A stretch of DNA of 64,000 bases from Paludibacteraceae bacterium (lineage in GTDB: Bacteria > Bacteroidota > Bacteroidia > Bacteroidales > Paludibacteraceae). Location of the stretch: assembly GCA_024400115.1 (NCBI GenBank), contig JAKSNF010000010.1:1-64000 (forward strand), given 5' to 3'. The notes beneath the pieces were generated by a model that did no database searches, had not been told where the DNA came from, and worked only from the letters and a program-made list of their open reading frames with translations. The position numbers were made by a program, and so were the translations under genes. Shown piece by piece: positions 2,392-51,165 of this stretch (positions are counted from its first letter, which is position 1; each line of letters starts with the position of its first letter).

Positions 2392-3588
2392 ATGAAAAAA
2401 CGGACACTGGTCATAGGGTATATTTTACTTGTTATCGTCGGTTATCTTCAAGGGCAATCAATACAAGAATTGATGCCTATGCCTCGGTCTATTTGTAGTG
2501 AAGCGTCCTTGCCTGCCGATTTGCAGAATAAATTAAATCGTATCCTTCAAGAGCGGTCAGAAAAACAGATGCGTTGGGGACAAGTGGTCACATGTAGGAG
2601 TGCTTTTTTACAAGATTGTTATTCGCGATACGTACACCATAACGACAGCTCTTTTTACTTAAATGACGCGCCCTATCAGTATAGTTACAAGTATGTATTT
2701 CCCAAGATGATTATCACCAATTCATCTTACGGTCATGAGGTAATACGCGGAAAGGGAGCCAAGTTCAATGCTAAGAAAGACCGATTGAGTTCTGTTTATT
2801 TAGACGATAGCAAGCACCTTTATGTAGTGAATAGAAAAAACGAGTTATGTGACCCCGCTTTGTTTAAGTTCACGGCAGAGGAAGGAGGAATACACATGGA
2901 GGGCAATCGCATTGTTTTGGATATGACTCCGCGGGATATAGCGAATGGTAAATATTCCTCGGAACAGCGAATAAACGTGACGCATTTGAATTCAAACACA
3001 ACCTATCGTTATGATCTGCAGTTCGTCTTTGAAGACAGTTTATCCTTACGGAGCAAAAAGAAAGCATTAGCCTTAATGGCCTACCCTACTGCGGATTATC
3101 CTAATTTAGGGGCAGTACTTAATCTAAGCGATAGGACGATGTTTTTTGTTCAACTCCCACTTACAATTCACGGAGAAGGGTCTAATGGGGCTAATGGTCG
3201 TAGAGGATATAACGGACAGAACGGAACACCTGATTATTGGTGGACAGACAAAGAAGGGAAGAAACATTACACGCCGGGCACTTGCGCCCAAGCAGGCGGC
3301 AACGGACAAGATGGAAGTGATGGTACAGACGGGGGGCAGTATTTGATTTTCTTAGACAACGACTTAGTTGATAGCCAGGGCGTGGAATGTGTTACGGCTT
3401 GGATTGATCCGGGCATAGGTGGAGAAGGTGGAAAAGGGGGCGAGGGCGGTATTCACGGACGCGGAAGCCAATGTAGGGGAATGGCTCCTAATGGTAAGAA
3501 CGGACGACATGGCAGAAACGGGCAAAGAGGCGATTTCCTCTATGTGACGGGAGATGTACAAACGTGGATAATGAAGGCACTGAAATGA
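2392..3588 (+). CDS. Exported protein with collagen-like Gly-X-Y segments
   Basis: First gene of a five-gene operon; function unknown. It has a signal peptide (MKKRTLVIGYILLVIVGYLQG) and a middle region without a recognised family. Two glycine-rich stretches (about residues 260-315 and 340-390) fall into Gly-X-Y triplets such as GANGRRGYNGQNG and GKNGRHGRNGQRG, the pattern of bacterial collagen-like proteins; many third positions are Asn or Asp, not Pro. Four Cys lie in the second half. The ATG at 2392 is preferred over a TTG at 2374 because it starts the signal peptide. The stop overlaps the next start (ATGA), indicating translational coupling. Confidence 0.8.
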   Translation: MKKRTLVIGYILLVIVGYLQGQSIQELMPMPRSICSEASLPADLQNKLNRILQERSEKQMRWGQVVTCRSAFLQDCYSRYVHHNDSSFYLNDAPYQYSYKYVFPKMIITNSSYGHEVIRGKGAKFNAKKDRLSSVYLDDSKHLYVVNRKNELCDPALFKFTAEEGGIHMEGNRIVLDMTPRDIANGKYSSEQRINVTHLNSNTTYRYDLQFVFEDSLSLRSKKKALALMAYPTADYPNLGAVLNLSDRTMFFVQLPLTIHGEGSNGANGRRGYNGQNGTPDYWWTDKEGKKHYTPGTCAQAGGNGQDGSDGTDGGQYLIFLDNDLVDSQGVECVTAWIDPGIGGEGGKGGEGGIHGRGSQCRGMAPNGKNGRHGRNGQRGDFLYVTGDVQTWIMKALK

Positions 3589-4829
3589 GAAGGGGATGGG
3601 TCTTTTGTATATTGATGTTAGTGTCTTTGTTGTTGAGCGCAAAAGAGACCACACGTCCGCGGCGTTATTACCGCAGCGCGTTAACCACGATGATGGTTTA
3701 TCACCCGACAGACGAGTTCGGTTATGAGGTATATCAGATTTATAAGGGATTACCCGTGCCCGATAAGTTCGATGAACACTCGATTGGCTATCAAGTAATT
3801 GATCAATCTTACATGACGGAAAGTGTCAGCGGAGAATCTCTTTTGAGGGTATTGGAAGACGGTCAAGTAGCAAAACGGATTGTAGCCAAGTGGTTTGACT
3901 GGAGCGGAGATAGTTTGGAGAATGCCGTTTTCAGTTCGAGGATATTAGAGGAGCGGTCGGACTACAATGTCAGTTTCATAGACGCCGAGAAGATTAAATA
4001 CACCATTGAGGGGCGTGCCTCGTTACGTGATGTAGGCGTACAACTGATGCAAAACTCATTCGTGTTGGTAAGTGATATAACTTATTCCACGGTTGAGGAC
4101 AAAGCAGAGAAAGCCAAGACGACACTAAATATATTAGGCGGAATAGCCGACATACTGACCGGAGGAAACGGAGGTAGGCGATTGGCTCAAGCCGCAGGGG
4201 ATATAGCCGACTCCTATACAGGTTTTAAGGTGATAACGCACACTTATCTTTATCAACTGGAGTGGAATAGAAACAAGATGAATGATTTCTTCGTTTACTA
4301 CTATACGGAAGAACCGAATAAGGATAAGATGCGTGCTTTTATAGAAGACACATCATCGTTCCATTTACGCTATTTAGGAACAGAAAGCAGCGTCTATGAA
4401 CAAACGGAGAAAAAAGGTAAATACAACCGAACCGAACTGCTGCAACTCATCACGGCACGCAGTATTGATAAGAACATAGCTACGCTTCAAACCAAGTATG
4501 AAGCTTTCCGAATCAAAGCACCTATCTCCTCCATTGAGTATAATAAAAGAGGAAAGGTTATTGGTTATAGGGCACTGATTGGAACGAAAGAAGATGTGAA
4601 GAACTCATCGGTATTTGAGATATTGGAGGTGTCCTTTGATGATGGAGAGTTGAAGTTCAATAAAGTGGGAAAAGCCAAAGTAGTTAATAATCGAATATGG
4701 GATAACCGCTATAACGCCCTAAAAGAAAACAACATAGATGTGAGTGTTGAAGGTACGCTATTAAAACCCAAAGGCAGACCTACGAAGACAGTTGTTCCCG
4801 GCATGTTGCTCAAACTGAAAAAACAATAA
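3585..4829 (+). CDS. Exported protein of unknown function, operon gene 2
   Basis: A 414-aa protein with an N-terminal signal peptide (MRRGWVFCILMLVSLLLSAKE) and otherwise soluble, so probably periplasmic. I do not recognise the family. It has a small hydrophobic, glycine-rich stretch near residues 185-210 (NILGGIADILTGGNGG) that could insert into a membrane or pack in a complex, and a basic C-terminus. The start at 3585 overlaps the previous stop as ATGA, and the stop is 2 nt before the next start. The conserved-looking spacing argues that it works with its neighbours. Confidence 0.75.
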   Translation: MRRGWVFCILMLVSLLLSAKETTRPRRYYRSALTTMMVYHPTDEFGYEVYQIYKGLPVPDKFDEHSIGYQVIDQSYMTESVSGESLLRVLEDGQVAKRIVAKWFDWSGDSLENAVFSSRILEERSDYNVSFIDAEKIKYTIEGRASLRDVGVQLMQNSFVLVSDITYSTVEDKAEKAKTTLNILGGIADILTGGNGGRRLAQAAGDIADSYTGFKVITHTYLYQLEWNRNKMNDFFVYYYTEEPNKDKMRAFIEDTSSFHLRYLGTESSVYEQTEKKGKYNRTELLQLITARSIDKNIATLQTKYEAFRIKAPISSIEYNKRGKVIGYRALIGTKEDVKNSSVFEILEVSFDDGELKFNKVGKAKVVNNRIWDNRYNALKENNIDVSVEGTLLKPKGRPTKTVVPGMLLKLKKQ

Positions 4830-4831
4830 TA

Positions 4832-6217
4832 ATGAAAAAGATTTTTTTACTATTCACACTTTTGATGGCGAACATTGTGATTGCTTCGCCTTGTAAGAAA
4901 GCAGATAAAGAGACTGCTCAGATGCGTTACGAATTGCAAGCCGCTGTAGGTCAAGCCTCAGAAGGCAGTGCGATGGTTCGCGTATGGACCTATTCCAAAA
5001 AAGCAAAGATTGCCAAAGAGCAAGCCGGTAAGAATGCTGTTCACGGGATATTGTTCAAGGGTTATCCCTCTTTAAATCACGGCAACACTCGCATTGTAGG
5101 TAGGGAAGCGCTGATTAGCGATGCTTCCATTTGGAACACGCAGGCTGCCTATTGGCAAGAGTTCTTCAAAGAGGGAGGTCCTTATCAACGCTATGTGAGT
5201 TATATAGCCAACGGCACTCCTGACTTCATAACCAAGGTGAACAAAGAGTACAAGATAGGTATTGTGGTTATTGTGCAAGTAGAAGCCCTCCGCAAGCGGT
5301 TACAAGAAGATGGTATTCTTCCCAAGGACGAGGTAAAAGGCAAAATGCCCATCATCATGGTAGTGCCGTCCTCCACATGGTGCAGTGCCCATGGATACAT
5401 GAAACAAGGTGCACCCGATTATGAGCAAGCCTTGCTGCATAGTCAAGAATTGAATCAAGCCATCACCACCTTATCCGTTCGCCTTAACCAACGAGGCTTT
5501 GAGATTAAAGACCTGAATAACGCTTTACGCACCATGCGCAATGAGGCAGCAGAAGAAGCGGTGACAGTCAGTCAGTTTGATGATAAGATAAATGAGACGC
5601 CTCTCGACCAACTGCGTCGCACAGCAAAGGCAGATATTTGGATAGAAATAGATTGGTATATCAACGAGTTAAAAGGCGGCAGTCAGCAGTCTTTGACGTG
5701 GTCAATGTCGGCTATAGACGCCTATACGGATATTGTGATTGGTGGTGTCAGCCCTACCACAACGGGAGCAACTTATGCCTCCTCGTTCCAATTACCCATT
5801 ATGGTGGAGAGTGCTATACAGGGTCAGTTCGACCCCTTCTGCAATACGCTTATTGATTATTTCCACAATATAGAGCAGAAAGGGCGTGCCGTTAAACTAA
5901 ATGTCCTCACATGGGAGATATTACGAGACGGCTTACAAACGGAGATAGACGACTTGGAGTTGAGCGACATCATCATCGAGTGGCTTGATAAGAACACAGT
6001 GAACGGCAAATACGGAACGCCGGAATTGAATCCATCAGGCACCCGAATGACCATTGAGCAAGTGCGTGTGCCCTTGGTGAACGCCAAAGGCAAGGACTTA
6101 TCCACCCTCAGTTGGATTAAAGGTTTACAAAAATGGCTCATGGACGAATATGACATGGAAAGTAATGTCAGCACCAAAGGACTGGGTCAAGTACAAATCA
6201 TTTTAGGAGGTAAATAA
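4832..6217 (+). CDS. DUF6175 family exported protein
   Basis: A 461-aa secreted protein with signal peptide MKKIFLLFTLLMANIVIAS. The stretch from about residue 170 to the end (PIIMVVPSSTWC, TAKADIWIEIDW, SAIDAYTDIVIGG, TKGLGQVQIILGG) matches what I know of DUF6175, a Bacteroidales-only family with no known biochemical function. The first 160 residues look like an LPP20-type repeat-helix segment (QASEGSAMVRVWTYSKKAKIAKEQAGKNAV) fused in front, which is longer than the usual family length of about 320 aa. Its TAATG overlap with the next gene shows coupling. Confidence 0.8.
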   Translation: MKKIFLLFTLLMANIVIASPCKKADKETAQMRYELQAAVGQASEGSAMVRVWTYSKKAKIAKEQAGKNAVHGILFKGYPSLNHGNTRIVGREALISDASIWNTQAAYWQEFFKEGGPYQRYVSYIANGTPDFITKVNKEYKIGIVVIVQVEALRKRLQEDGILPKDEVKGKMPIIMVVPSSTWCSAHGYMKQGAPDYEQALLHSQELNQAITTLSVRLNQRGFEIKDLNNALRTMRNEAAEEAVTVSQFDDKINETPLDQLRRTAKADIWIEIDWYINELKGGSQQSLTWSMSAIDAYTDIVIGGVSPTTTGATYASSFQLPIMVESAIQGQFDPFCNTLIDYFHNIEQKGRAVKLNVLTWEILRDGLQTEIDDLELSDIIIEWLDKNTVNGKYGTPELNPSGTRMTIEQVRVPLVNAKGKDLSTLSWIKGLQKWLMDEYDMESNVSTKGLGQVQIILGGK

Positions 6218-7152
6218 TGCGTCATCATTCTATATTTATTTGTTTGGCATTATTTTTGTTTGCTTGCTTTTGTACGGGATGTGCCACCGTTAAAGTGACG
6301 GAGTCGTCTGTTCGTCGTGCGCCCCAATGGGTGTTTGGAGCGGAACATAATTTCCTCATTGTGTCCGCAGAGGCAGAAGACATAGAGACAGCGAAGAGCA
6401 AAGCCCTCAATGAGGTTAAGAAACAGATGGTTAATGCCATTTCCGAGAATATCCGCACCACCTCTCATACGACAACGGAGGAATTAGGAGTGGATGATGC
6501 TTACGCCACAGTCGAGTTATATCGCGAAGAGTTGGCAACGGAGAGCGGCAATGTACCCTTCCTCAGTCAGGTTACGTTGGCAAATGTGGCCGATTACTAT
6601 TGGGAGAAACGCTTTGACAAGAAGACGAAAGCTGAGTGGTATGTTTACCATCTGAAGTACCCCTTCTCGCGTCTAAACCAAGAAGAGTTAATTGCTAAGT
6701 TCGAGGCGCAAGAGGCGGCTATTAACCGTCAGTTGAAGGAGTTAGAACAAGTCGATTTCAGCACTTTCTCGTCCGTGGAACAGATGGTAGCACAAGGAAC
6801 GACATTGAGAACGTTCCAATCTACGCTCATGGAGAACGACGGAAGACGAAAAACGTGTGACCGTATTCTGAGGGGATATAAGTCCAATGTGGAGCAATTG
6901 ACTATTCAGGCGGTGTGTGTGGATCGCGAAAAGACGCTGTATGAGGTATATTTAGGGGAGAAGAAGATGGCTTGCAATATCCGACCATATCTGCGTTCCA
7001 AATGTTTAGAGCAGATGAATTGGCAAGTGAAGGACGGTGTCAATGTGGTAACATACGACTATAGCGAATGTTTTGAAGACGAACAAAATTATATAGATAT
7101 CACGATAACGGTGATGGGAAAGAAAATCAACCATAGATATTTTATTCTATAA
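6217..7152 (+). CDS. LPP20-like lipoprotein, operon gene 4
   Basis: A 311-aa lipoprotein: hydrophobic N-terminus ending in a lipobox (CFCTGC, Cys about residue 22). Next comes the typical LPP20/FlgO-type layout in which the protein begins APQWVFGAEHNFLIVSAEAEDIETAKSKALNEVKKQMV, an alternating strand and Ala/Lys-rich helix. A coiled-coil-like stretch follows (about residues 165-230). It is probably anchored in the outer or inner membrane facing the periplasm. It starts at the ATG inside the previous stop (TAATG) and lies 37 bp upstream of the related smaller lipoprotein. Its function is unknown. Confidence 0.75.
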   Translation: MRHHSIFICLALFLFACFCTGCATVKVTESSVRRAPQWVFGAEHNFLIVSAEAEDIETAKSKALNEVKKQMVNAISENIRTTSHTTTEELGVDDAYATVELYREELATESGNVPFLSQVTLANVADYYWEKRFDKKTKAEWYVYHLKYPFSRLNQEELIAKFEAQEAAINRQLKELEQVDFSTFSSVEQMVAQGTTLRTFQSTLMENDGRRKTCDRILRGYKSNVEQLTIQAVCVDREKTLYEVYLGEKKMACNIRPYLRSKCLEQMNWQVKDGVNVVTYDYSECFEDEQNYIDITITVMGKKINHRYFIL

Positions 7153-7189
7153 TTAACCCTAATGTTTCACTAACTAAATTTTTTGTATT

Positions 7190-7768
7190 ATGAAAAAAGT
7201 AGTTTTATTAACTCTCGCAACGGTTGCTCTGTTGGCTACCGGTTGCAAATCGAAAAAAGTTGTTACTCCCGTTCAAGGAGAACAAGAAGTAACCGTTCTT
7301 TGCAGTGAGTACAAGACGGACAAAACCGCTATCCGCTCCACCGCAACGGCCGTATCGCCCAACATGCAAAACGCCAAGGACAAAGCCTTAGCAGCAGCTC
7401 GTCGTGAGTTAGCTACCAGTGTTAGCACGCACCTCAACCGCGTGGTAGAGACTTTCTCTTCCTCTTATGATCAAGAAGCAGCCGCTTCTTTCGAGGCTCG
7501 CACCAAAGACCTTGCACAACAAGTTACCTCGCAAACGATCAATGGTAGTTTCGTTGAGTGCGACAAGATCACGAAGACCGTCAACAAGGATGGTTCGATT
7601 GTTTACCGTGCCTATGTTGCAGTTGCTTTAGGCAATGACAAGGTGATGGATATTGTTGAGAGACAATTCAAGACCAGCGTTTCCGAGGAGGATAAACTGC
7701 ACACCGACTTTGAGTATGAGCAATTCAAAGAGACGTATTACAAAGCTTTAGAGGACTTTAAGAAATAA
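7190..7768 (+). CDS. Small LPP20-like lipoprotein, operon gene 5
   Basis: A 192-aa lipoprotein with lipobox LLATGC (Cys about residue 19). The body is a strand plus an Ala-rich helix pattern (SPNMQNAKDKALAAARREL) very like the preceding gene product and the LPP20 family, so the two are probably paralogous or partner subunits. Last gene of the operon; it is followed by a strong terminator. Codon use looks more regular than in the other operon genes (many CGT, ACC and CTC codons), which may mean higher expression. Confidence 0.75.
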   Translation: MKKVVLLTLATVALLATGCKSKKVVTPVQGEQEVTVLCSEYKTDKTAIRSTATAVSPNMQNAKDKALAAARRELATSVSTHLNRVVETFSSSYDQEAAASFEARTKDLAQQVTSQTINGSFVECDKITKTVNKDGSIVYRAYVAVALGNDKVMDIVERQFKTSVSEEDKLHTDFEYEQFKETYYKALEDFKK

Positions 7769-7805: not shown

Positions 7806-7838
7806 AGCGGTAATCCCTCATCGGGTTACCGCTTTTTT
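7806..7838 (+). terminator. Intrinsic terminator of the five-gene operon
   Basis: Stem AGCGGTAA (7806-7813) pairs with TTACCGCT (7826-7833), with an inner CCC/GGG pairing, followed directly by a run of six T. Confidence 0.85.
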
Positions 7839-7909: not shown

Positions 7910-7941
7910 TTTGCATATGTCAAAAAAAATCCGTATCTTTG
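7910..7941 (+). promoter_or_regulatory. Promoter of the toxin-antitoxin pair
   Basis: TTTG at 7910-7913, a 20-nt gap and TATCTTTG at 7934-7941, 25 nt before the antitoxin start. Confidence 0.8.
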
Positions 7942-7966: not shown

Positions 7967-8194
7967 ATGAGTGCTTCTTTTACAATTTCGTATGATGTAG
8001 CCAATGTTCAAGCAACAATTATGTTGCAACAAATGATTGCTTCTGGCTTTTTTCAAGTAAAAAAACATGAAAATCCAATAGAAGTTTATTCTGCCAAAGA
8101 TTTATCTTCGCACACTTGTAGTGTAGACGAGATGTGTGATCATTTGATTGAGAGAACTCATCGCTATTTTGCAAACAAGTCGGTATGCGAGTAA
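7967..8194 (+). CDS. Putative antitoxin of a type II toxin-antitoxin pair
   Basis: A 75-aa acidic protein without a recognised domain. Its position, size, own promoter and 10-nt overlap with a RelE/ParE-like gene downstream are those of an antitoxin. The N-terminal half (SYDVANVQATIMLQQMI) may form a dimerising helix, while the C-terminal half would wrap the toxin. No classical ribbon-helix-helix or HTH motif is obvious, so it may not autorepress in the usual way. Assigned by context, not by family. Confidence 0.6.
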   Translation: MSASFTISYDVANVQATIMLQQMIASGFFQVKKHENPIEVYSAKDLSSHTCSVDEMCDHLIERTHRYFANKSVCE

Positions 8195-8499
8195 TTGTTG
8201 ATTCGCAAATAGAAGAAACTTTGTGGGCTTTTTACGAAGAAGCCATGTGTCTTCATCCAACATTGGATATGACAACAGTGGTTAATAAGATTAATCGCCT
8301 TCGTGGTGAATTAAATGCCTTGGGTGATTTTCCCGATAAATATCCATTGGCAAAGAAAGTAGAATGGCAACTTCGTGGGTATAGAGAGTTTGTGTATGAG
8401 GATATACATTTAGGGTATAAAGTTATAAAATTAGGAGAAACTAAAGAATCAGTTGTTTATGTGGCAGAGGCTTGCCATAGTTTATTATATCACGATTAG
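8185..8499 (+). CDS. RelE/ParE-family toxin-like protein
   Basis: A 104-aa protein ending in the strand pattern of the RelE/ParE fold: KVEWQLRGYREFVYEDIHLGYKVIKLGETKESVVYVAEACHS. The Arg of GYREF and the following beta strands are where the fold places functional residues. RelE members cut ribosome-bound mRNA and ParE members poison gyrase; the sequence does not decide which applies. The start codon lies inside the end of the antitoxin gene (10-nt overlap), a typical arrangement. Confidence 0.65.
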   Translation: MRVIVDSQIEETLWAFYEEAMCLHPTLDMTTVVNKINRLRGELNALGDFPDKYPLAKKVEWQLRGYREFVYEDIHLGYKVIKLGETKESVVYVAEACHSLLYHD

Positions 8500-8819
8500 A
8501 AAATTTTAGTTTATGATTGACCGGCATCGTAAAGGCGATGCATGACATATAAAATTAGAGTACAGCTAAGAACTTGGGATTTCGAAACCTCGACAATTTC
8601 AGAAAATCTCACCAAGAACAAGGCTTTTTACTCGCGCTTTGTGCGTGAGTCTTGTTCTGTAGATATTTGGTGAGATAAGGTAGTCGAGACCGCGAAATCC
8701 CAGATTGAAGCTAACAAGCCTCACGTTTTTTTATGCCTATAACTAAACAATAATATTAACCACGGAGAGTGCCGAAAATCCGATGAAGAGTAGGCAAAAA
8801 TATTAAAATTATTAAACAT
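8500..8819. other. 320-bp gene-free stretch with structured sequence
   Basis: No CDS. It holds a small hairpin (GCATCG/CGATGC, 8524-8541), the large quasi-palindrome at 8564-8709 (listed separately) and an AT-rich leader before the gene at 8820. I see no consensus promoter for that gene. Confidence 0.6.
8564..8709. repeat. 146-nt imperfect palindrome (possible structured RNA or MITE)
   Basis: Paired arms, from outside in: TGGGATTTCG (8575) with CGAAATCCCA (8693); CTCGAC (8589) with GTCGAG (8683); ATCTCACCA (8606) with TGGTGAGAT (8668); AGAACAAG (8615) with CTTGTTCT (8651); ACTCGCGC (8630) with GCGTGAGT (8643), leaving a 5-nt loop TTTGT. More than 40 base pairs are separated by small asymmetric bulges. 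Confidence 0.75.
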
Positions 8820-9854
8820 ATGAAAAAGATTTTATTTATGATGGTTGTTTGCGTGTTCTCGCTAACAATGTATGCCCAAACCTACAAATTGGGTGATTAT
8901 GTAGAAAAAGATGGCGTTCCATCTATTGTCGTGTATGTGGATCAAACTGGAGAACATGGTCTCCTTTTATCAATGAAGGCTAGAGGTATTGAAGAAAAAA
9001 ATTTATCGAAAGAGGATAAAATAATTGCGAAAGAAAAAAAAGAAATTTTAAGCATTTATCAAAAACGAATGAAGTTTTATCATGTCGCTCGAGTAAAAAA
9101 ACAAGGTGCAGAAGCATTAGCTGCCGTAGATGCTCGTTTTGAGACGCAAAAAGAAATGATTGATAAATTTTACACGCAAAAACCAATCGTTTACACAAAA
9201 CAATTTTATAAGATTAAAGACGAGGAGAGGAAAAATATTCTTCAAAGTATCCAAGGACAAATGAATGGATCAGGTCAAGAAAATACAAGATTGCTATTGG
9301 ATCTTTGTGCAGAGAATAATCTGTCTGTAAGAGATTATTTTCCTACTTATGATTGGGTATCAAACTTGGGGACCGATTGGTTTATTCCAGGAAACGATGA
9401 ATTGGAACTTATGGCTCAAAGTCTTAACATAGATAATTTAGGCGAAGATTATAAAAGTTCCATACCTCATGGTAAAAACGACACTGAAATATACAACATT
9501 TTTGACTCAATCAATAGCAATGTTGCCTATCTTGTGCGTAATGTAAGTCTTGGTTTGGATTATTATTGGTTTAATGTATGGGGAGGAGACAAATATTGGC
9601 CTCTCTGCTCCATAGAATCATCTACGATGGTTAAAAGCAATTGGTCGGAGATGGATGGAAATAAGTCAAAGACAAAACGCCAAGTTCAAGTATCGACATC
9701 CGCTGGCATAGTTGGCGTGATTGTTTCGGCTGCGGTTTCTGCATCAGTAGATAATTTATTTTATTCCTTCGGGCGGAACTACACTGCAACAGACTATTAT
9801 TGGACGTTCTTTACTAATATCTCGGGGTACGTATGTGCCATGTCTAAATTCTAA
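8820..9854 (+). CDS. Secreted protein, distant DUF1566/FISUMP-like
   Basis: A 344-aa secreted protein with signal peptide MKKILFMMVVCVFSLTMYA. A Lys/Glu-rich helical region (residues 50-110) is followed by a segment with DUF1566-like landmarks: WFIPGNDELELMAQSLN (compare the usual W-x-LP-x-x-x-EL) and later YYWFNVWGGDKYW and YYWTFF. I infer a divergent C-type-lectin-like fold; this is uncertain. A hydrophobic patch (GIVGVIVSAAVSASV) sits near residue 300. Base composition is more AT-rich than in the flanking core genes. The next gene starts 5 bp downstream, so they form one transcript. Confidence 0.65.
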   Translation: MKKILFMMVVCVFSLTMYAQTYKLGDYVEKDGVPSIVVYVDQTGEHGLLLSMKARGIEEKNLSKEDKIIAKEKKEILSIYQKRMKFYHVARVKKQGAEALAAVDARFETQKEMIDKFYTQKPIVYTKQFYKIKDEERKNILQSIQGQMNGSGQENTRLLLDLCAENNLSVRDYFPTYDWVSNLGTDWFIPGNDELELMAQSLNIDNLGEDYKSSIPHGKNDTEIYNIFDSINSNVAYLVRNVSLGLDYYWFNVWGGDKYWPLCSIESSTMVKSNWSEMDGNKSKTKRQVQVSTSAGIVGVIVSAAVSASVDNLFYSFGRNYTATDYYWTFFTNISGYVCAMSKF

Positions 9855-32519: not shown

Positions 32520-32567
32520 CAAAATTACAAATTATTTTGCATATATGCAAAAATTTAATTACTTTTG
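32520..32567. promoter_or_regulatory. Overlapping divergent promoters, rnr and smpB
   Basis: rnr (minus): TAATTTTG at 32527-32520 and TTTG at 32551-32548. smpB (plus): TTTG at 32536-32539 and TACTTTTG at 32560-32567. Both gaps are 20 nt. Confidence 0.8.
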
Positions 32568-51133: not shown

Positions 51134-51165
51134 CAAAGGTACAAAAAAATTTGCATATATGCAAA
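51134..51165 (-). promoter_or_regulatory. Promoter of the YhcH-glgB-nagB-cysS-GT4 operon
   Basis: Minus strand TACCTTTG (51141-51134), 20-nt gap, TTTG (51165-51162). Confidence 0.8.

Follow-up and report, generated by a model that had tools for sequence, protein, structure and literature searches.

The flagellar H-ring of Vibrio, built of the lipoproteins FlgO and FlgP and the periplasmic FlgT, aids the passage of the flagellum through the outer membrane (PMC7990780), and the SHS2 fold of FlgP rings is common to Lpp20 and FlgT (PMC12222027). The lipoprotein PelC forms a ring that sits under the PelB barrel (PMC12141448), while the outer-membrane ring of FapH helps maintain the barrier in H. 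pylori (PMC11756786). Here, we compare these systems with a five-gene operon, g1–g5, at 2392–7768 of a stretch of 64,000 nucleotides (nt) from a Paludibacteraceae bacterium (GenBank assembly GCA_024400115.1, contig JAKSNF010000010.1, positions 1 to 64,000 of the forward strand), the whole of which is hereinafter the window. We find that an envelope module of the Bacteroidota, of the form E-A-C-D(-g4-g5), is present in the window in a derived version, in which g2 represents family E and g3 families A and C, and that the predicted structures of g2 and g3 relate it at the level of fold to FlgT, CsgG and PelC. The genes and domains of the operon are:

2392–3588, + strand: g1, an exported protein with four short Gly-X-X blocks, outside the conserved module
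3585–4829, + strand: g2 (family E), a FlgT-like protein by AlphaFold, Foldseek and VIA-align
4832–6217, + strand: g3, a fusion of family A (residues ~1–165) with family C, which is DUF6175 (171–459)
4895–5326, + strand: A domain of g3, from the AlphaFold model and the A family alignment
5336–5881, + strand: CsgG/PelC/TolB-N/FlgT-M-like domain of DUF6175 (g3 residues ~169–350), by VIA-align
6217–7152, + strand: g4, an LPP20-like protein with a possible lipobox, by family alignment and lipobox regex
7190–7768, + strand: g5, an LPP20-like lipoprotein, by family alignment

Only g3 passes a Pfam cut-off among the five, matching DUF6175 (PF19672) over residues 171–459 with an E-value of 1.4e-73 and 248 bits against a cut-off of 23; for g1, g2, g4 and g5 no family of either Pfam or NCBIfam reaches its cut-off. 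When 84,980 named species genomes were scanned with g3 relatives, 552 relatives emerged, the best 80 of which were kept, and the window, 20 stretches from relatives and these 80 named loci together make up 101 loci, all of whose open reading frames (ORFs) were searched with profiles. The best 80 are labeled as Bacteroidota of several orders, with carriers including gut and marine strains (Bacteroides, Alistipes, Flavobacterium, Aquimarina), plus one metagenome-assembled genome labeled Chlorobiota. The named loci were chosen by their C gene (called in 78 of the 80 and missed in L073 and L099); C is thus present by selection and the informative counts are those of A, D and E. Across these 78 loci, A is adjacent or fused to C in 77, D lies immediately downstream of C in 76 and E is within the locus in 73, with the strict order E-A(-A)-C-D kept in 61 and median gaps of 17–22 nt for C-D, A-C and E-A. 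A and C are unfused in 70 of them, and g4-type and g5-type genes are found nearby in 17 and 14, respectively. The stretches from relatives show the same arrangement, with C called in 16 of 20 and D next to it in all 16. Most congeners with the genes encode the halves of g3 as separate A (~165 amino acids, aa) and C proteins, plus D (~312 aa) and E, with A often duplicated and its second copy lipoprotein-like. Among 41 relatives, own genome included, g3 is present in 22, g2 in 19, g4 in three (one weak and with stops) and g5 in five (four of them weak).

The association extends across the phylum: in a separate draw of 395 of its genomes, DUF6175 is found in 19 (as against none of 14 control genomes), E in 14 and both together in 13, compared with about 0.7 expected by independence, while D is found in 12, ten of which have C. 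As the 395 are related and include both the own genome and a family (f46) in which several of the E matches are weak and partial, we treat this co-occurrence as support and not as a significance test. The row of E, A, C and D recurs (L172, L152) in a genome that shares the phylum of the window but not its class. Gene fusions link the same families: A::C fusions appear at four or more places in the C tree (the window, L043, L069 and a clade that comprises seven loci), and this scatter indicates that the fusion probably arose several times. Further, distant genomes of the phylum have ORFs of ~430–455 aa (L156, L158, L186 and L187) in which an LPP20-like N-terminal part is fused to a C-terminal part resembling D. 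In the window E, A and C lie on one strand, g2 being followed by the A::C fusion g3. The membership of g2–g5 in a module whose genes stay together across Bacteroidota speaks for a joint complex of their products in the envelope. A preliminary description of the operon had proposed a stoichiometric complex of all five products, with the synteny of their genes in relatives as a check; g2–g5 indeed occur together in a tightly spaced phylum-wide module, but g1 stands apart with no homologue, g3 is two genes fused and D is absent.

In a subset of Bacteroidales loci (L107, L109, L111, L114, L121, L128, L130, L131, L135 and L138), a protein of 560–690 aa, with what we take to be WG-type repeats, is encoded beside E in the module. 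In two Flavobacteriales loci (L078 and L085), E-A-C-D is directly followed by a second, longer E (~590 aa) and two A-type genes. Neither "DUF6175" nor "FlgT-like" is mentioned in 5.39 million open texts, a corpus that excludes subscription papers and preprints, and among the matches listed for LPP20 with Bacteroid and for FlgT/CsgG/PelC/TolB none concerns the module, the match "lpp2082" being a false lead. The folds are known; their combination and setting we judge to be new.

The leads to FlgT and CsgG/PelC come from AlphaFold models, built only from window and locus sequences; no sequence search gave them. The g2 model (predicted local distance difference test, pLDDT, 88.5; predicted TM-score, pTM, 0.83) has FlgT (3w1e) as its best PDB match in Foldseek (E 7.8e-6, probability 1.00; the next best at 0.026), residues 31–414 aligning to FlgT 99–355. 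FlgT consists of N-terminal, middle and C-terminal domains, and the alignment begins at its residue 99. VIA-align likewise pairs g2 with FlgT (Z 9.3, 227 residues, root-mean-square deviation (rmsd) 11.4 Å) and with a chain of the LPHT ring structure 8z5n, presumably also FlgT (Z 9.0, 222 residues, rmsd 11.2). In its predicted fold, and at that level only, g2 corresponds to the middle and C-terminal domains of FlgT. Most VIA-align rows for g2 are N-terminal barrels of F1-ATPases (mainly against g2 residues ~309–414, rmsd ~2.0 over 67–70 residues), which we set aside as a common small barrel and not kinship. The g3 model (pLDDT 90.3, pTM 0.79) best matches FlgT, CsgG, an LPHT-ring chain, GNA1162, PelC and HpaA. 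Its residues ~170–350 align in VIA-align with CsgG (Z 10.4, 139 residues, rmsd 6.9), PelC (Z 9.1) and FlgT (Z 8.8), by which the modeled DUF6175 core is of the CsgG/PelC/TolB-N/FlgT-M fold; the A domain is modeled as beta-beta-alpha-insert-beta-beta-alpha. LptE, TolB and the anticodon domains of tRNA synthetases score only slightly lower against g3 (Z ~7–8); the fold is thus widespread and the match alone shows no function. The preliminary description had given none of the five proteins a known role, which holds by sequence in Pfam and NCBIfam, but the models now link g2 to FlgT and g3 to CsgG, PelC and FlgT.

The remaining two proteins add an LPP20 connection, which is visible in their families more than in the window. 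LPP20 (PF02169) is the family matched most often, though below its cut-off, in 5 of 15 g5 relatives and 5 of 18 g4 relatives, and a distant relative of the g5 family (L158) passes the Pfam cut-off (32.5 versus 25.9 bits). The g4 and g5 profiles match one another over 68 columns (hhalign probability 90.5). Such recurrent matches liken them to the LPP20 lipoproteins, such as H. pylori Lpp20 and Campylobacter FlgP; however, neither g4 nor g5 of the window matches LPP20 at E ≤ 1, and the g4 family usually lacks a lipobox. By regex, the lipobox is present in 30 of 114 A/B proteins, 5 of 16 in the g5 family and 1 of 19 in the g4 family, the sole positive of the latter being window g4; window g5 is also positive. 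The LPP20-like helix pattern that the earlier reading ascribed to two lipoproteins and to part of the DUF6175 protein holds for g4 and g5 at the family level, but is not seen for the N-terminal domain of g3, whose profile comparison with g4/g5 recovers only the signal peptide or a chance 26-column stretch. A relationship between D and the g3 family was similarly rejected as a signal-peptide match, and the g4, g5, D and A profiles find no convincing match among PDB sequences.

Compared with the Vibrio H-ring, the module shares the FlgT fold in g2, the family of the basal-disk protein FlgP in the LPP20-like g4/g5 and the general character of small exported, outer-membrane-associated proteins, some of them lipoproteins. 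It differs in that DUF6175, A, D and a barrel-fused E are added and that sequence identity is very low (8–10%); the N-terminal, LPP20-like domain of FlgT is not seen in the g2 alignment. Moreover, the flagellar/type III export gene FHIPEP is absent from all 41 relatives searched, own genome included, while being recovered in 4 of 14 controls, which indicates that the module is not a flagellar accessory there. Turning to curli, the DUF6175 core has the fold of the CsgG periplasmic domain, but the module lacks a PF03783 match and neighbors of the CsgE, CsgF or CsgA type; a curli operon of the known make-up (PMC3521004) is ruled out by the lack of PF03783, CsgE and CsgF matches for the five proteins at E ≤ 1. 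With PelBC exopolysaccharide export the module shares the PelC-like core of g3 and, in full loci, possibly the logic of ring, tetratricopeptide repeats (TPR) and barrel; in contrast, the families are separate, other domains are added and no polysaccharide synthase operon was noticed beside the module.

The link to the outer membrane comes from E. Extensions of at least 100 aa at the C-terminus are found in 17 of 97 E proteins, and while one is a fusion to A, the other 16 are of ~150–210 aa and 14 of these end in Phe (L032 and L102, both in the set, are apparently the same contig). Beta-barrel proteins often end in Phe. Small barrel-like genes also occur inside other loci, namely L107 (below cut-off) and L108 (DUF3575, over cut-off). 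One alternative reading makes the module a secretion pore proper, with C as a CsgG/PelC-like ring and E plus barrel as the exit channel for a protein or polysaccharide polymer, here g1. CsgG and PelC being among the best fold matches of g3, the TPR-bearing D of other loci and the barrel-like E extensions would all suit such a pore, as would the precedent of PelBC, where a barrel is joined by a TPR scaffold and a ring of lipoprotein (PMC12141448). We nevertheless regard it as unlikely. CsgG has long transmembrane hairpins, and the secondary structure of the g3 model shows none like them; no conserved substrate gene was found with the module, whose extra neighbors, where they recur in some of the loci, are WG-repeat-like or barrel-like genes; and the window lacks both D and a barrel.

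Instead, we favor, with about even confidence, a reading of the conserved gene order, the fusions, the modeled folds and the lack of FHIPEP in which the module encodes a ring or collar that its products form beneath the outer membrane, on the side of the periplasm. In this proposal, which we infer by analogy, the subunits would oligomerize like FlgT, FlgP, CsgG and PelC, a lipid anchor would hold g5, and perhaps g4, at the outer membrane, and E would act as a scaffold. The membrane would be crossed by a beta-barrel, which other lineages, unlike the window, carry as a fusion to E. The most likely job of such an assembly would be to make or stabilize an outer-membrane opening or an anchoring point for a surface product; the co-transcribed g1 might be that product or a surface cap, which is the weakest step of the proposal.

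Several observations weigh against the ring or collar. The whole-chain TM-scores are low (0.2–0.26), and an rmsd of 11.4 Å over the 227 residues aligned between g2 and FlgT means that their domains are arranged differently. E and A are tied to no curated family, and 9 of 33 A members match a CodY helix-turn-helix (best 4.3e-5), though these matches look spurious, A being an exported protein. The putative barrel in the E extension is read from a sequence pattern, the E of L116 having no Pfam match; oligomerization is a step that we infer, and it is a guess, prompted by co-transcription, that g1 might be the cargo. Finally, a window copy without D and the barrel may be impaired or altered.

The FlgT and LPP20 folds would also suit a structural support or lipid-barrier ring of the FapH/FlgP kind, bracing the envelope or a machine that spans it, such as those of type IX secretion or gliding. 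The barrier role of the FapH ring in H. pylori offers a precedent (PMC11756786), and a phylum-wide yet patchy presence, in 19 of 395 genomes, might fit it, although that same patchiness counts against its serving a core machine; on balance we consider this improbable. Returning to the ring or collar, its boldest form, which we consider unlikely, holds that Bacteroidota possess a relative of the FlgO/FlgP/FlgT ring that works without a flagellum. This would be a collar through the outer membrane, made of FlgT-, CsgG- and LPP20-like subunits with its own beta-barrel, opening or bracing the outer membrane for a surface product and rewired in this genome by the fusion of A and C, the loss of D and the recruitment of the Gly-X-X protein as cargo. 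If this were true, the flagellar H-ring would have branched off from an older and more general kit for outer-membrane rings. Apart from this boldest form, the module brings DUF6175, to which Pfam assigns no function, and several unnamed families together in a single system that spans the phylum and whose structural model can be tested. It also suggests that the outer-membrane ring parts of flagella are members of a broader set of envelope rings, in use among non-flagellated bacteria.

The window copy is a departure from the common organization. D is found neither in the window nor in its genome by the same profile that detects it elsewhere in the phylum, and the start of g4 coincides with the stop codon of g3, where D normally sits. 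L064–L066, which hold E-A-C-D-g4(-g5), are among the loci closest to the window in A, C and g4, and the A domain of g3 is nearest to the A proteins of L064/L065 (53–54%). In the E tree the window groups with congeners and then with L064–L066 (support 0.86, 0.96 and 0.995), and in the A tree with L064 (0.82), while in the C tree it falls near the root on a long branch (1.27). We take the latter placement as long-branch noise; the simplest history of the locus would be a loss of D, a fusion of A to C and a gain of g1, with the C tree not clear here. One might also suppose that the lipoproteins and periplasmic proteins of g1–g5 act independently and have only their promoter in common, or that the copy of this genome is decayed, and the absence of D, the long DUF6175 branch and the finding of g1 nowhere else are in keeping with this. 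We hold it to be very improbable, as all the frames are open and tightly coupled and the synteny and fusions recur across the phylum.

The local additions to the module are g1 and the adjacent AraC gene. The remaining features of the operon region are:

1355–2206, − strand: divergent AraC-family gene (Pfam HTH_18, E 5.2e-17)
2233–2264, − strand: promoter of the AraC-family gene, its own copy of the Bacteroidales pattern
2345–2376, + strand: operon promoter of Bacteroidales type, TTTG-N20-TAATTTTG, by pattern search
3178–3540, + strand: Gly-X-X region of g1 (residues ~263–383), by repeat shuffle test
7806–7833, + strand: intrinsic terminator of the operon after g5, an 11-pair stem and T-run

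The repeats noted earlier in the first gene are real, with 22 Gly-X-X triplets in four blocks of 5–6, a number reached by none of 5000 composition shuffles; however, they are short and interrupted and g1 has no Pfam collagen match, which makes "collagen-like" a loose label. Its Gly-X-X region might possibly form a polyglycine-II-like bundle. Homologues of g1 are absent from the 392 other genomes of the order (393 searched); a search of the 1,297 ORFs in the 101 loci recovers g1 alone, and among the 41 relatives only the own genome has it. Collagen as the key to the operon was dropped since g1 was found in no other genome. Likewise, the AraC gene does adjoin the operon promoter, but no AraC-like ORF was found in any other of the loci examined and we dropped it as a conserved regulator; neither it nor g1 is part of the conserved system.

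The single consensus promoter of the preliminary description is borne out: it ends 15 nt before the ATG of g1, and its pattern, TTTG-N18..21-TAnnTTTG, has 17 matches in the window where shuffles predict 0.89. The tight packing by overlaps or 2-nt gaps holds from g1 to g4 (4-nt ATGA overlap of g1/g2 at 3585–3588, 2-nt gap of g2/g3 and 1-nt TAATG overlap of g3/g4 at 6217) but not for g4/g5, which are 37 nt apart. Of the strong terminators, there is one good one, at 7806–7833, but the nine terminator-like sites in the region are not clearly above chance (shuffle mean 6.2, sd 2.2). Signal peptides were assigned by eye.

Downstream of the operon, two small overlapping genes (7967–8194 and 8185–8499, + strand) with their own promoter (7910–7941) and no Pfam match at 0.01 look like a toxin–antitoxin pair by size and layout. 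Beyond them, an unassigned exported-protein gene (8820–9854) is preceded by a long, strongly paired inverted repeat (8575–8705, + strand) and, just upstream, by a DUF805b cis-regulatory RNA of Rfam (8762–8796, + strand; 37.2 bits versus a cut-off of 35.6); 8520–8819 folds at −82.3 kcal/mol (z −5.5), with none of 200 shuffles as stable. Elsewhere in the window, the −33 promoter element extended to TTTGCRTATWTS occurs 11 times against 0.14 expected. A perfect palindrome of this element, TTTGCATATATGCAAA, is present at two sites (e.g., 32536–32551 and 51150–51165), with promoter matches on both strands at 32520–32567, and is possibly a regulator site or a lineage-specific form of the promoter.

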